Positions 10,970 through 27,372 of a stretch of DNA of 64,000 nucleotides are shown here, piece by piece. Position 1 is the first letter of the stretch; every line of letters starts with the position of its first letter. This DNA is from a virus. The stretch is taken from positions 1-64,000 of the IMG/VR virus record IMGVR_UViG_3300044712_000688. One strand, written 5' to 3'. Under the pieces are notes generated by a model. It had not been told where the DNA came from, ran no database searches, and saw only the letters and a list, made by a program, of their open reading frames with translations. Made by a program: the position numbers and the translations under genes.

Positions 10970-11041
10970 TCCTCTCTAGCTCAATGGCAGAGCAACGAGC
11001 TGTTAACTCGTCGGTTCGTGGTTCGAATCCACGGAGGGGAG
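10970..11041 (+). tRNA. tRNA-Asn (GTT)
   Basis: Full cloverleaf: acceptor TCCTCTC/GAGGGGA, D-arm GCTC/GAGC, anticodon stem ACGAG/CTCGT with loop CTGTTAA (anticodon 11002-11004), T-arm CGTGG/CCACG with TTCGAAT. No encoded CCA. It lies 26 nt before tmRNA. Confidence 0.95.
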
Positions 11042-11067
11042 CTATAATTGAATATAACTAAATACAA

Positions 11068-11404
11068 GGGCCTGACTGGTTTCGACAGTGGGACTGAAGT
11101 CGGTGAAGCAAGCCGAGATAGCGGAGTCTCGTAAAAACCGCTAACAAAAATAAATGCTGAATCACGTTCTGCATTCGCTCTAGCTGCTTAGTAGTAGTTA
11201 GAACCCCTAGCAAAGCACTAGTCCTAAGTGGGCAGCTAGGCTTTAAATAAATAGGACAACCAGCACCAAGGCGGTTACGGGCCTTTAAATCGTAGTGGCT
11301 AGACGGTCTGGCAGGTCAAACGTCTAGTGATATGAAAACTGCCTAAGCTTGTAGAAGAACGATGGAACTTTCATTGGACGCGGGTTCAATTCCCGCCAGG
11401 TCCA
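11068..11404 (+). ncRNA. ssrA: tmRNA (transfer-messenger RNA)
   Basis: The 5' end GGGCCTGACTGGTTTCGACA and 3' end with GCGGGTTCAATTCCCGC and CAGGTCC form the tRNA-like domain. The tag frame begins at GCT 11156 and reads AESRSAFALAA before TAGTAG (11189-11194). The ALAA ending directs proteolysis by Clp-type proteases and is standard. It rescues stalled ribosomes with SmpB, which is not encoded here and must come from the host. No CCA is encoded. Some large actinophages carry tmRNA; it is otherwise rare in phages. Confidence 0.96.
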
Positions 11405-11406
11405 CT

Positions 11407-24385: not shown

Positions 24386-24952
24386 ATGACTTTAAAAATC
24401 GGTTCCTTGTTTAGTGGCTATGGTGGCCTAGACATGGCAGTATCTCAGGTATTCAACGGGGATGTTGTCTGGCACTGTGAATGGGAAGATGCTCCATCAA
24501 AGGTTTTAGCAGCTAACTTCCCTGGAGTCCCTAACTATCGAGACGTGACTAAGGTTGACTGGAAATCAGTTGAGCCAGTAGACATTCTTTGTGGTGGGTT
24601 TCCTTGTCAGGACCTCAGCTTAGCTGGTGGTCGGGCTGGATTAAAAGACGGAACTCGATCAGGACTGTGGTCAGAGTTCGCCGAGGCGATCCGAATTTTG
24701 TCGCCTAAGTATGTAGTAATTGAAAACGTAAGAGGGTTGTTGAGTGGAAAAGCATATAGCGACGTGGAACTCGGAGAAGAGCTTGTGGTACAAAAATCAG
24801 GAGACCCCGCTCTCAGGGCCATGGGTGCTGTACTCGGCGACCTGGCCGAGTTGCGGTATGACGCAAGGTGGCAAGGCGTACCAGCTTCCGCCGCGGGCGC
24901 TCCTCATGAACGGTTCCGAGTATTCATCCTCGCAATTAGACGAGATTCCTGA
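24386..24952 (+). CDS. C5-cytosine DNA methyltransferase, catalytic part
   Basis: 188 residues. Motif I FSGYGGLDMA (9-18), motif IV GGFPCQDLS with catalytic C74, motif VI ENVRG (113-117) and motif VIII HERFRVFILA (175-184). It stops before the target-recognition domain and motifs IX-X, which are encoded in another frame by the next, overlapping gene. The pair recalls the two-subunit enzyme M.AquI. TAGGGT lies seven bases before the ATG (leaderless). Marks phage DNA, probably against restriction. Confidence 0.88.
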   Translation: MTLKIGSLFSGYGGLDMAVSQVFNGDVVWHCEWEDAPSKVLAANFPGVPNYRDVTKVDWKSVEPVDILCGGFPCQDLSLAGGRAGLKDGTRSGLWSEFAEAIRILSPKYVVIENVRGLLSGKAYSDVELGEELVVQKSGDPALRAMGAVLGDLAELRYDARWQGVPASAAGAPHERFRVFILAIRRDS

Positions 24953-25706
24953 AGAATCAATGCTTCGTACTCCTTCAGCAATTGAGGGAGAGGGCGGTGC
25001 TATCCGCGAGGACGTAGCACGCGCTAAGAACCGTATGCTCATGGTTCGTGATCAGATGGCTCAGTTGGCATATGAAAATGGGCTACCTGTTCCAGATGCT
25101 ATCGCTAAGCTGCCAACTCCTATGGTGATGGATCGCGCCGGAGCCATGCACCCAGATGATCGTAAGAAGAGTGGTGCTGGATACGGCCCTGCACTTCGCG
25201 ACATCCCTTATCTGCTTGGTACTCCGCGTACAAGCTCTGCTAATGGCTCTAGTTCTATTCAAGTTGCAACTGGAGCACCTAAGTCTCGCTTGGAAGATCA
25301 GGCAGAAGTAATCAACAATCTTCCAACACCAACAACCCGTGACCACAAGGATGGCACTGTTCCGCACGAGCGTGACGGTGTTGTTCAGGTTGATACGGTT
25401 GCTCGTGCTGTAATCAATAGTGGTGAAGTTACCGACATTTCTTGGGGTAAGTTTGAACCTGCTATTCGCCGTTGGGAAAAAATTACTGGACGCCCTGCAC
25501 CTGCTCCTACTGAAGCTAGCGGTAAGAATGGTACACATAGGCTCAGCTCAAAACTGACGGAATGGATGATGGGGCTCCCGGACGGATTTATTACGGGTCA
25601 CGGTCTATCTCGCACTGCAGAATTGAAACTCGCTGGCAACGGGGTTTGCCCACAGCAGGCAGTTTTGGCTTTGACTTTACTTACACAAGATCTTGAACTA
25701 GAATAA
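24744..25706 (+). CDS. C5-cytosine DNA methyltransferase, recognition part
   Basis: 320 residues from a GTG, overlapping the catalytic gene by 209 nt in another frame. The first 60 residues include ATWPSCGMTQGGKAYQLPP, a phrase typical of the methyltransferase middle region in phages. Then LRTPSAIEGEG, LPTPTTRDHKDG, FEPAIRRWEKITGRPAPAPTE and EWMMGLPDGFIT, ending with motif X LAGNGVCPQQA. Must partner the catalytic part to act. The overlap appears to be truly read in both frames. Confidence 0.82.
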   Translation: MEKHIATWNSEKSLWYKNQETPLSGPWVLYSATWPSCGMTQGGKAYQLPPRALLMNGSEYSSSQLDEIPEESMLRTPSAIEGEGGAIREDVARAKNRMLMVRDQMAQLAYENGLPVPDAIAKLPTPMVMDRAGAMHPDDRKKSGAGYGPALRDIPYLLGTPRTSSANGSSSIQVATGAPKSRLEDQAEVINNLPTPTTRDHKDGTVPHERDGVVQVDTVARAVINSGEVTDISWGKFEPAIRRWEKITGRPAPAPTEASGKNGTHRLSSKLTEWMMGLPDGFITGHGLSRTAELKLAGNGVCPQQAVLALTLLTQDLELE

Positions 25707-25721
25707 CTAAACAACTAAAAA

Positions 25722-25795
25722 GGTCCTGTGGCGCAGTTGGTTAGCGCGTCTCCCTGTCACGGAGAAGGTCGCCAGTTCAAGTCTGGTCAGGATCG
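25722..25795 (+). tRNA. tRNA-Asp (GTC)
   Basis: Acceptor GGTCCTG/CAGGATC, anticodon arm TCTCC-CTGTCAC-GGAGA (anticodon 25756-25758), T-arm GCCAG-TTCAAGT-CTGGT. First of a four-tRNA run. Confidence 0.95.
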
Positions 25796-25799
25796 CGAT

Positions 25800-25874
25800 G
25801 GCCCCATAGTTTATCGGTTAGAACACCGCCCTTTCACGGCGGCAGGGCGAGTTCAATTCTCGCTGGGGTCACCA
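25800..25874 (+). tRNA. tRNA-Glu (TTC), CCA encoded
   Basis: Acceptor GGCCCCA/TGGGGTC, anticodon arm CCGCC-CTTTCAC-GGCGG (anticodon 25833-25835), T-arm GCGAG-TTCAATT-CTCGC. ACCA follows, so the 3' end is encoded. Confidence 0.95.
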
Positions 25875-25875
25875 A

Positions 25876-25950
<75 letters not shown>

Positions 25951-26024
25951 CGAGACTTAGCTCAGCTGGTTAGAGCCCCGAACTCATAATTCGGTCGTCG
26001 TGGGTTCAAGTCCCACAGTCTCGA
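25951..26024 (+). tRNA. tRNA with CAT anticodon (Met or Ile2)
   Basis: Acceptor CGAGACT/AGTCTCG, D-arm GCTC/GAGC, anticodon loop CTCATAA (anticodon 25985-25987), T-arm GTGGG-TTCAAGT-CCCAC. The C1-G72 pair and lack of three G-C pairs in the anticodon stem argue against initiator. Whether it is elongator Met or lysidine-modified Ile2 cannot be told by reading. Confidence 0.9.
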
Positions 26025-26041
26025 CGATGTAGACTATACCT

Positions 26042-26684: not shown

Positions 26685-26757
26685 CCCCGTGTACCCCAAT
26701 GGCAGAGGGACCCGACTTAAAATCGGCTCAGTATCGGTTCGAGTCCGATGGCGGGGA
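26685..26757 (+). tRNA. tRNA with TAA anticodon (Leu), short variable loop
   Basis: Acceptor CCCCGTG/GGCGGGG with a G-G mismatch at the seventh pair; D-stem CCC/GGG; anticodon stem CCGA/TCGG with loop CTTAAAA (anticodon 26718-26720); T-arm ATCGG-TTCGAGT-CCGAT. The variable loop is only about five bases, whereas bacterial tRNA-Leu normally has a long variable arm. Charging by leucyl-tRNA synthetase is therefore uncertain. Confidence 0.8.
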
Positions 26758-27372
26758 CTAAGGAAGCATGTCGTAGAAAAACACAAGAAGGTTTACGCGC
26801 GACCCCTTTGTAATCTCGTTGACTCCGTGAGATACGTAGTGGCCGGGAAACAAAACTAAACTTCCCTTTTTAGGCTTAATTACTACGCCTTGGTCATCAA
26901 ATAAAAGCTCTCCACCTTCATAGTCGTCATTTAGCAAGATGCTACAAACGTGAGATCTTTTCTTGCCGTCAAACTCTCCGTTTGGATTAGCATCCTCGTC
27001 TCGGTGAGACGCAAGCACCGCGCCCTTATCCATGACGTTCCCGAAGATTCTGCTGAACACAAATTCGCCATACATTTCATATGTGTTTTCGTAGTAATCT
27101 CGTACGGCTTCAACCAGATCAATTAGCTTCTTGTCTGGATCCTGGTGGAGAGGGTAGTGTCCAGCTGCTAACAACTCGCTATCAAAAAAGCCCATCCCAC
27201 GAAAGTGTGGCTTAGGGTCTTTTTGAGAATTCTGAAGTACTATCTGCGCAAAATAGTCGCAAGTTTCAGGTGATAGATAGTCTTCAATTACGTGAAATGA
27301 GCGTTCGCTAGTCAACCTAGTTCCTTTTGTTAGATAGTCCAATTGTACCTTAAATTGTGTTTGTCTTGACAA
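26758..27372 (-). CDS. 2-oxoglutarate/Fe(II)-dependent oxygenase
   Basis: 204 residues. H123/D125 (SHRDED), H182 (SHGV) and R192 (GSRVNLLVFF), with SILLNDDYEGGELLFDDQG and PKKGSLVLFPG: the prolyl-4-hydroxylase-like fold. Start is a TTG at 27372; AAGGTG lies just upstream. Its stop abuts tRNA-Leu on the opposite strand with no gap. Substrate unknown. Confidence 0.86.
   Translation of the reverse strand: MSRQTQFKVQLDYLTKGTRLTSERSFHVIEDYLSPETCDYFAQIVLQNSQKDPKPHFRGMGFFDSELLAAGHYPLHQDPDKKLIDLVEAVRDYYENTYEMYGEFVFSRIFGNVMDKGAVLASHRDEDANPNGEFDGKKRSHVCSILLNDDYEGGELLFDDQGVVIKPKKGSLVLFPGHYVSHGVNEITKGSRVNLLVFFYDMLP

Follow-up and report, generated by a model that had tools for sequence, protein, structure and literature searches.

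Two overlapping reading frames with C5-methyltransferase motifs

The window analysed here is a stretch of 64,000 nucleotides, positions 1 to 64,000 of a 136,298-base virus record (IMG/VR IMGVR_UViG_3300044712_000688). It contains two open reading frames that overlap by 209 nt, the second lying in the +1 frame relative to the first. The features of the locus are as follows.

24386..24952, + strand: ORF1 (alpha), C5-methyltransferase catalytic part with motifs I-VIII (PF00145; aligned with 16 single-chain relatives)
24605-24607, + strand: catalytic Cys codon of ORF1 (FPCQD)
24722..24730, + strand: ENV motif of ORF1, the conserved anchor for comparisons (sequence)
24730..24736, + strand: Shine-Dalgarno-like AAGAGGG, 7 nt 5' of the ORF2 GTG (sequence; AGR enrichment)
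24743..24746, + strand: AGTG, in which the ORF1 Ser codon AGT (24743-24745) creates the ORF2 GTG (24744-24746) (AGT enrichment)
24744..25706, + strand: ORF2 (beta), +1 frame, with a beta-rich N-terminal domain, a middle part and motifs IX and X
24744..24952, + strand: dual-coding overlap of 209 nt, ORF1 motifs VII-VIII over the ORF2 N-terminal domain
24905..24934, + strand: motif VIII region of ORF1, HERFRVFILA (sequence)
25560..25586, + strand: motif IX of ORF2, EWMMGLPDG (alignment; weak profile match to DRM2)
25635..25658, + strand: motif X of ORF2, GNGVCPQQ (alignment with single-chain relatives)

ORF1 (188 amino acids, ATG start) matched PF00145 in Pfam (2.3e-35) and phrog_363 in PHROGs (2e-68), and it contains motifs I-VIII of the C5-methyltransferases, including the catalytic PC and ENV. 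Motifs IX and X were found in ORF2 instead of ORF1. The first-pass annotation had described a catalytic half ending at motif VIII in one frame and a second half that begins 209 nt before that end in another frame and ends with motif X, and both halves are as it described them. ORF2 (320 amino acids) starts with a GTG immediately 3' of an in-frame TGA (24741-24743). It matched phrog_1008 (1e-53), which PHROGs labels DNA methyltransferase; no family in Pfam or NCBIfam was matched by ORF2 or by the other +1 proteins searched. Five other +1 proteins tested also matched phrog_1008, and one other frame-1 protein tested (L080) matched phrog_363. PHROGs gives phrog_363 the same label as phrog_1008, and the entries for the two families are silent on any sharing of DNA between them.

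A cluster of tRNA genes (Asp, Glu, Thr, Met; 25722-26025) lies directly 3' of ORF2, with a tRNA-Leu farther downstream (26685-26758). Elsewhere in the window there is a tmRNA gene (11068-11405, tag AESRSAFALAA) beside a tRNA-Asn (10970-11042).

Stop codons in the +1 frame of relatives

We collected relatives in five IMG/VR scans, four made with frame-1 proteins and one with ORF2 (5 loci), and added eight phage records from the ORF2 match list. The resulting 290 loci (289 fetched plus the window) were obtained mostly by similarity to ORF1, with 13 of the 290 fetched by ORF2. Removal of short loci left 286 that were aligned, 280 of these were usable, and 204 formed the non-redundant set once loci at least 90% alike had been removed. 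The tested segment ran from ten codons upstream of GDL through the end of motif VIII. For the null expectation, the ORF1 protein was held fixed and its codons were redrawn from the usage upstream in the same ORF1.

We found a +1 stop within the tested segment in 3 of the 204 loci, compared to 137.8 expected. The +2 frame had a stop in 152 of 204, compared to 143.5 expected. Among AT-rich loci (GC3 < 0.4), none of 18 had a +1 stop, and 17.1 were expected to. The three exceptions (L060, L189 and L206), which were retained in every count, have one stop each in a +1 frame that is otherwise family-like. Free disruption of the second frame in homologues, which the first-pass annotation had named as a sign against dual coding, thus amounts to three single stops.

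The stop-free zone is sharply bounded. In the actinophage-type loci it begins just past ENVRGLLS, which is the start of ORF2, and in the larger group it extends from about 20 codons upstream of ENV to beyond motif VIII. In the 34 actinophage-type loci where the +1 frame ends within a longer ORF1 (actN), there were zero +1 stops per 10-codon window from -60 to +29 codons around the end of motif VIII. In bacterial genomes the +1 frame was open in 75 of 75 aligned loci (out of 80, 77 with ORF1 on the + strand), a set that we left out as a test because its retrieval by an ORF2 motif biases it.

Selection in both frames

Some of the likeness among +1 proteins arises from ORF1 itself. The ORF1 phrase GDLAELxYDAxW read in the +1 frame passively gives part of ATWPSCGMTQGG. 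Likewise, translation by hand showed that GDLAELGYDAEW, which is conserved in ORF1, becomes ATWPSSGMTRSG in the +1 frame when its codons end in G or C. Because the resemblance at ATWPSCGMTQGG is partly passive, inspection by eye is insufficient and tests against a null are needed.

If conservation of ORF1 and biased codon use alone made the +1 frame look conserved, codon-randomised sequences should resemble the +1 family, and to a degree they do, with mean +1 profile scores of 16.2 and 23.7 bits. The real +1 sequences scored well above this null. When the 146 loci outside the actinophage type were scored with a profile of actinophage-type +1 proteins, the mean was 49.2 bits, compared to 16.2 for the randomised versions, and 132 of the 146 beat all 50 of their own. 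The reverse profile, from the other group to the actinophage-type loci, gave 54.1 compared to 23.7 bits, and every one of the 58 loci outscored its 50 randomised versions. The same explanation is at odds with the stop depletion in AT-rich loci, and the effect was missing from canonical enzymes. We used as controls 30 C5-methyltransferase loci from actinobacterial genomes, where a PF00145 search matched 58 of 198 genomes. In the +1 frame, 21 of the 30 carried a stop (25.8 expected), and their mean scores against the two +1 profiles were 9.7 and 0.3 bits. The +1 gene was also absent from two E. coli plasmid enzymes that were inspected.

Substitution rates at ORF1 codon positions 1, 2 and 3, taken over BLAST-alignable parts of pairs that are not independent observations, were.17,.13 and.51 upstream,.23,.14 and.39 in the overlap, and.36,.09 and.09 past motif VIII in the gnN loci (larger group, +1 frame ending within a longer ORF1). 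In this last stretch it is the third +1 codon position that is free to vary, and the stretch therefore evolves as +1 coding sequence. In a reverse test, where the expectation kept only the +1 protein and the pairs were again non-independent and confined to BLAST-alignable parts, an ORF1 stop was found after motif VIII in 2 of 134 loci, compared to 118.6 expected. Between the window and its relative L011, ORF1 third positions differed in 62 of 110 codons upstream and in 11 of 64 in the overlap (Fisher 2.8e-7; the pairs counted are not independent of each other), which agrees with the synonymous-site conservation that had been proposed as a check.

Passive similarity from codon bias is refuted by the stop test, the reverse ORF1 test, the cross-profile test and the canonical controls, and we give it almost no probability. 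The statistics indicate that conservation of the +1 protein exceeds what passive similarity would give. The stop counts, the cross-profile test and the third-position test also bear out the earlier suspicion that the 209-nt overlap truly codes in both frames.

A recent frameshift decay or a sequencing error, splitting one gene in this genome, would fit with the existence of single-chain relatives. However, the layout of the window is common to its close relatives L009 and L010 and to 24 split loci in all, and synonymous sites in the overlap are constrained. These two observations refute decay or error, the probability of which is negligible.

The start of ORF2

We compared the start site in 58 actinophage-type loci, using upstream codons as the background. 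The ORF1 Ser codon that makes the start was AGT in 39 of the 56 loci with Ser at this place, compared to 21 of 394 upstream (Fisher 1.2e-27). Similarly, of the 54 loci with Arg right after ENV, 38 use an AGR codon, compared to 50 of 387 (2.6e-18). AGA or AGG at this place gives a purine-rich site ahead of the ORF2 start, and in the window AAGAGGG takes in the Arg codon AGA (24731-24733). A start at +22 or +25 was present in 40 of the 58 loci and absent in 18. An ATG at +4 was found in 9 of these 18 and in 5 of the 40 (p 0.006), and nine loci have neither the +22/+25 start nor the +4 ATG. L244 has kept an ATG at the ORF2 start position although its ORF1 has His there, not Ser. The AGT and AGR enrichment, the +4 ATG and L244 therefore favour separate initiation of ORF2. 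On the sequence statistics as a whole, dual coding together with a separate start for ORF2 appears close to certain.

Placement of motifs among layout classes

The 204 loci comprised 133 gnN, 34 actN, 24 actS (split as in the window), 11 gnS (larger group, +1 frame outlasting ORF1) and 2 cut by a contig end. ORF1 outlasts the +1 frame in 168 of the 204. Motifs were placed by a simple motif scan, in which one truncated locus was counted with gnN to give 134. Among these 134, motif IX was confined to the +1 frame in 101 (ORF1 only in 8, both in 7, none found in 18), motif X was in ORF1 only in 120, and the two placements were combined in 91. In actS loci ORF2 holds motif IX in 17 of 24 and motif X in 20 of 24, and in actN loci motif IX is within ORF1 in 28 of 34. 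By the motif scan, the catalytic part is therefore fixed in frame 1 and the beta-rich N-terminal domain is fixed in the +1 frame. The remaining parts, as placed here, have changed frame between lineages.

These placements bear on whether the +1 product is a separate small protein, such as a regulator or an antagonist of restriction or defence, that merely shares the DNA. Such a protein would account for the persistence of a nested +1 ORF where ORF1 looks complete, as in the 34 actN loci and in Streptococcus phage MM1. In MM1 and the 28 actN loci noted above, ORF1 holds motif IX and looks complete, so beta in these loci is not simply a missing half; our guess is that its N-terminal domain has a structural or stabilising role there. 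However, the gnN products look complementary, because motif IX is mostly in the +1 frame only and motif X mostly in ORF1. In addition, neither of the two +1 proteins compared with PADLOC had a match, and M.EcoHK31I requires two proteins, as the title of Lee et al. (1995) states. We consider a separate small protein unlikely.

We picked twelve named records from match lists and found the +1 gene in eight and no +1 gene in four. The carriers are phages of Streptococcus, Paenibacillus, Porphyromonas, Bacillus, Vibrio and Synechococcus (the Vibrio and Synechococcus records came from a +1 query), a Megaera plasmid and a plasmid of the archaeon Methanomethylovorans. In actinobacterial genomes, phrog_1008 was present in 5 of 198; these include the genome around which the set was drawn, which was already known to carry it.

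The Megaera plasmid (L379) has motif IX (LNPDWVEWLMGYPISWTD) and motif X together in frame 1, and its +1 frame retains the GRSGMMQSG domain, making it a useful form for reading nested layouts. Streptococcus phage MM1 (L372) and Bacillus phage BhaS-171 (L376) have a segment DILEEEVxExYFLS in the +1 frame. Its counterparts in Javan141 (DILEDSVDEKYYLS) and an E. coli plasmid enzyme (DILEKSVDNKYTLS) are read in frame 1, a difference suggestive of a frame change in an ancestral segment.

Structure and a proposed two-subunit enzyme

The end of ORF2, with motifs IX-X, could be aligned with 16 single-chain relatives, and the matches of an ORF2 profile to PDB sequences were all weak (DRM2, E 0.021). 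The model of ORF2 by itself had a mean pLDDT of 60.8. Residues 1-50 form a small beta-rich domain (block means 66-84) and residues 231-290 a helical end (82-90); the middle is of low confidence, with residues 122-148 and 150-214 under 50. Foldseek returned nothing at E <= 0.001 for this model, and nearly all of the 50 matches listed were C5-methyltransferases, at E of about 1-4. We also modelled a joined ORF1-ORF2 chain, an artificial construct that corresponds to no known product. It aligned with M.HhaI residues 10-325 (Z 21.7, rmsd 3.6, 234 aligned), and by this fit ORF2 therefore supplies parts missing from ORF1.

The complete C5-methyltransferase fold in the model of the joined chain would also suit a programmed +1 frameshift close to the ORF1 stop, which would fuse motifs I-VIII with IX-X in one chain; frameshifting had been raised as an alternative by the first-pass annotation. 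ORF1 ends in TCC TGA, a context known from antizyme frameshifting, and single-chain relatives exist. Several observations oppose this mechanism. ORF2 has a conserved start and Shine-Dalgarno-like site of its own. The codons before the ORF1 stop, and the distance of that stop past motif VIII, vary among the 24 split loci, and no shared shift-site context was seen when their ORF1 ends were compared by eye. A fused product would lose the conserved, dual-coded N-terminal domain of ORF2, and in the 168 loci where ORF1 outlasts the +1 frame it runs on. Because ORF2 has its own start and ribosome site, the ORF1 stop contexts are variable and ORF1 is mostly unstopped there, frameshifting is unsupported, and we think it very unlikely.

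The reading that we consider probable is a two-subunit C5-methyltransferase with alpha and beta chains translated independently from overlapping frames. One mRNA with two initiation sites would give two chains and one enzyme. ORF1 would give the alpha chain, whose motifs I-VIII would bind SAM and carry out catalysis. Ribosomes would enter again at the Shine-Dalgarno-like site and GTG inside ORF1 and make the beta chain in the +1 frame, with its beta-rich N-terminal domain over motifs VII-VIII followed by the variable region and motifs IX and X. Assembly of alpha and beta into one methyltransferase, filling the canonical C5-methyltransferase fold, seems to us just as probable. We infer that both chains would be translated in infection and bind each other, and that the complex would methylate DNA, probably as self-protection against host restriction. 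The layout would be an old family trait, in which the point where the variable region, IX and X return to the frame of ORF1 varies. Counting against this reading are the complete-looking ORF1 of MM1 and of 28 actN loci, the low-confidence middle of the ORF2 model and the 18 actinophage-type loci without the +22/+25 start, nine of which have no +4 ATG either.

Comparison with known two-chain methyltransferases

The small gene of M.EcoHK31I is probably nested within the large gene in another frame. According to an excerpt of PMC3404938, its large chain has motifs I-VIII, X and a predicted recognition domain, and its small chain has motif IX. The 91 of 134 nested relatives in the larger group with IX and X divided between the frames resemble this enzyme. 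The window divides its motifs differently: its ORF2 carries both IX and X, and ORF1 ends soon past VIII. Also, the recognition domain of M.EcoHK31I is predicted on the large chain in that excerpt, whereas the stretch after motif VIII in the nested relatives evolves as +1 sequence. In the window the two genes have a long +1 overlap, and in 168 of the 204 loci the +1 frame ends before ORF1.

M.AquI is described in the same excerpt (PMC3404938) as having an alpha chain with motifs I-VIII and a beta chain with part of the variable region and IX-X. The window has the same division, alpha with I-VIII and beta with the variable region and IX-X. It differs in that its beta bears an extra N-terminal domain overlying motifs VII-VIII; a comparably long overlap is not stated for M.AquI in the excerpt. 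The two-subunit reading modelled on M.AquI, which the first-pass annotation had offered, fits the evidence, with the qualification that M.EcoHK31I is an equally close precedent.

In Streptococcus phage MM1 1998, orf13 and orf14 are annotated as C5 methyltransferase alpha and beta subunit. The nested +1 ORF in this methyltransferase gene matches the beta profile (39.1 bits). Unlike the window, MM1 has a complete ORF1 with motifs I-X, and its +1 ORF ends soon past the DILEEEVDERYFLS segment, without motifs IX-X. Since M.AquI and M.EcoHK31I have been described and the MM1 record labels a nested beta, the two-chain kind of enzyme is already known. A second frame within actinophage methylase genes has been described as a mobile insertion (ShiLan; excerpt of PMC11855218), which differs from the overlap of two methyltransferase parts here. 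Our literature search found no description of this ORF1/ORF2 overlap. Apparently new, as not found in the literature searched, are the actinophage variant, the selection in two frames, its breadth and the frame changes.

To our knowledge, two conserved domains seldom share a long piece of one strand in different frames, whether in large-genome DNA phages or in cells. The dual coding described here is backed statistically in 204 non-redundant loci, with the start and ribosome site kept by rare codons. The first-pass annotation had called the dual coding remarkable; it is confirmed and larger than claimed, as a trait of the whole family that is not peculiar to this phage. The surprise is its breadth. 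The family is a large natural data set on the evolution of overlapping genes and on the movement of protein parts between frames. Several public records annotate just one of the pair, and supposed single-chain enzymes may therefore need a second subunit.

A broader reading, to which we give somewhat less than an even chance, is that a mostly viral clade of C5-methyltransferases obligately encodes a +1 beta over motifs VII-VIII, with the N-terminal domain overprinted on the catalytic gene and IX-X frame-hopped. Its members would include an archaeal plasmid as well as phages whose hosts belong to several bacterial phyla. Because both chains would always be made, the variable region and IX-X would be free to hop through small indels. 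If this is true, the AquI-like, EcoHK31I-like and single-chain layouts derive from one ancestor.

Annotation of the two frames differs among public records. The Paenibacillus phage record annotates both. In three others (L005, L374 and L381; Gordonia phage Geodirt, Porphyromonas phage018a and Vibrio phage 1.236) only the +1 protein is annotated and the catalytic frame is omitted.
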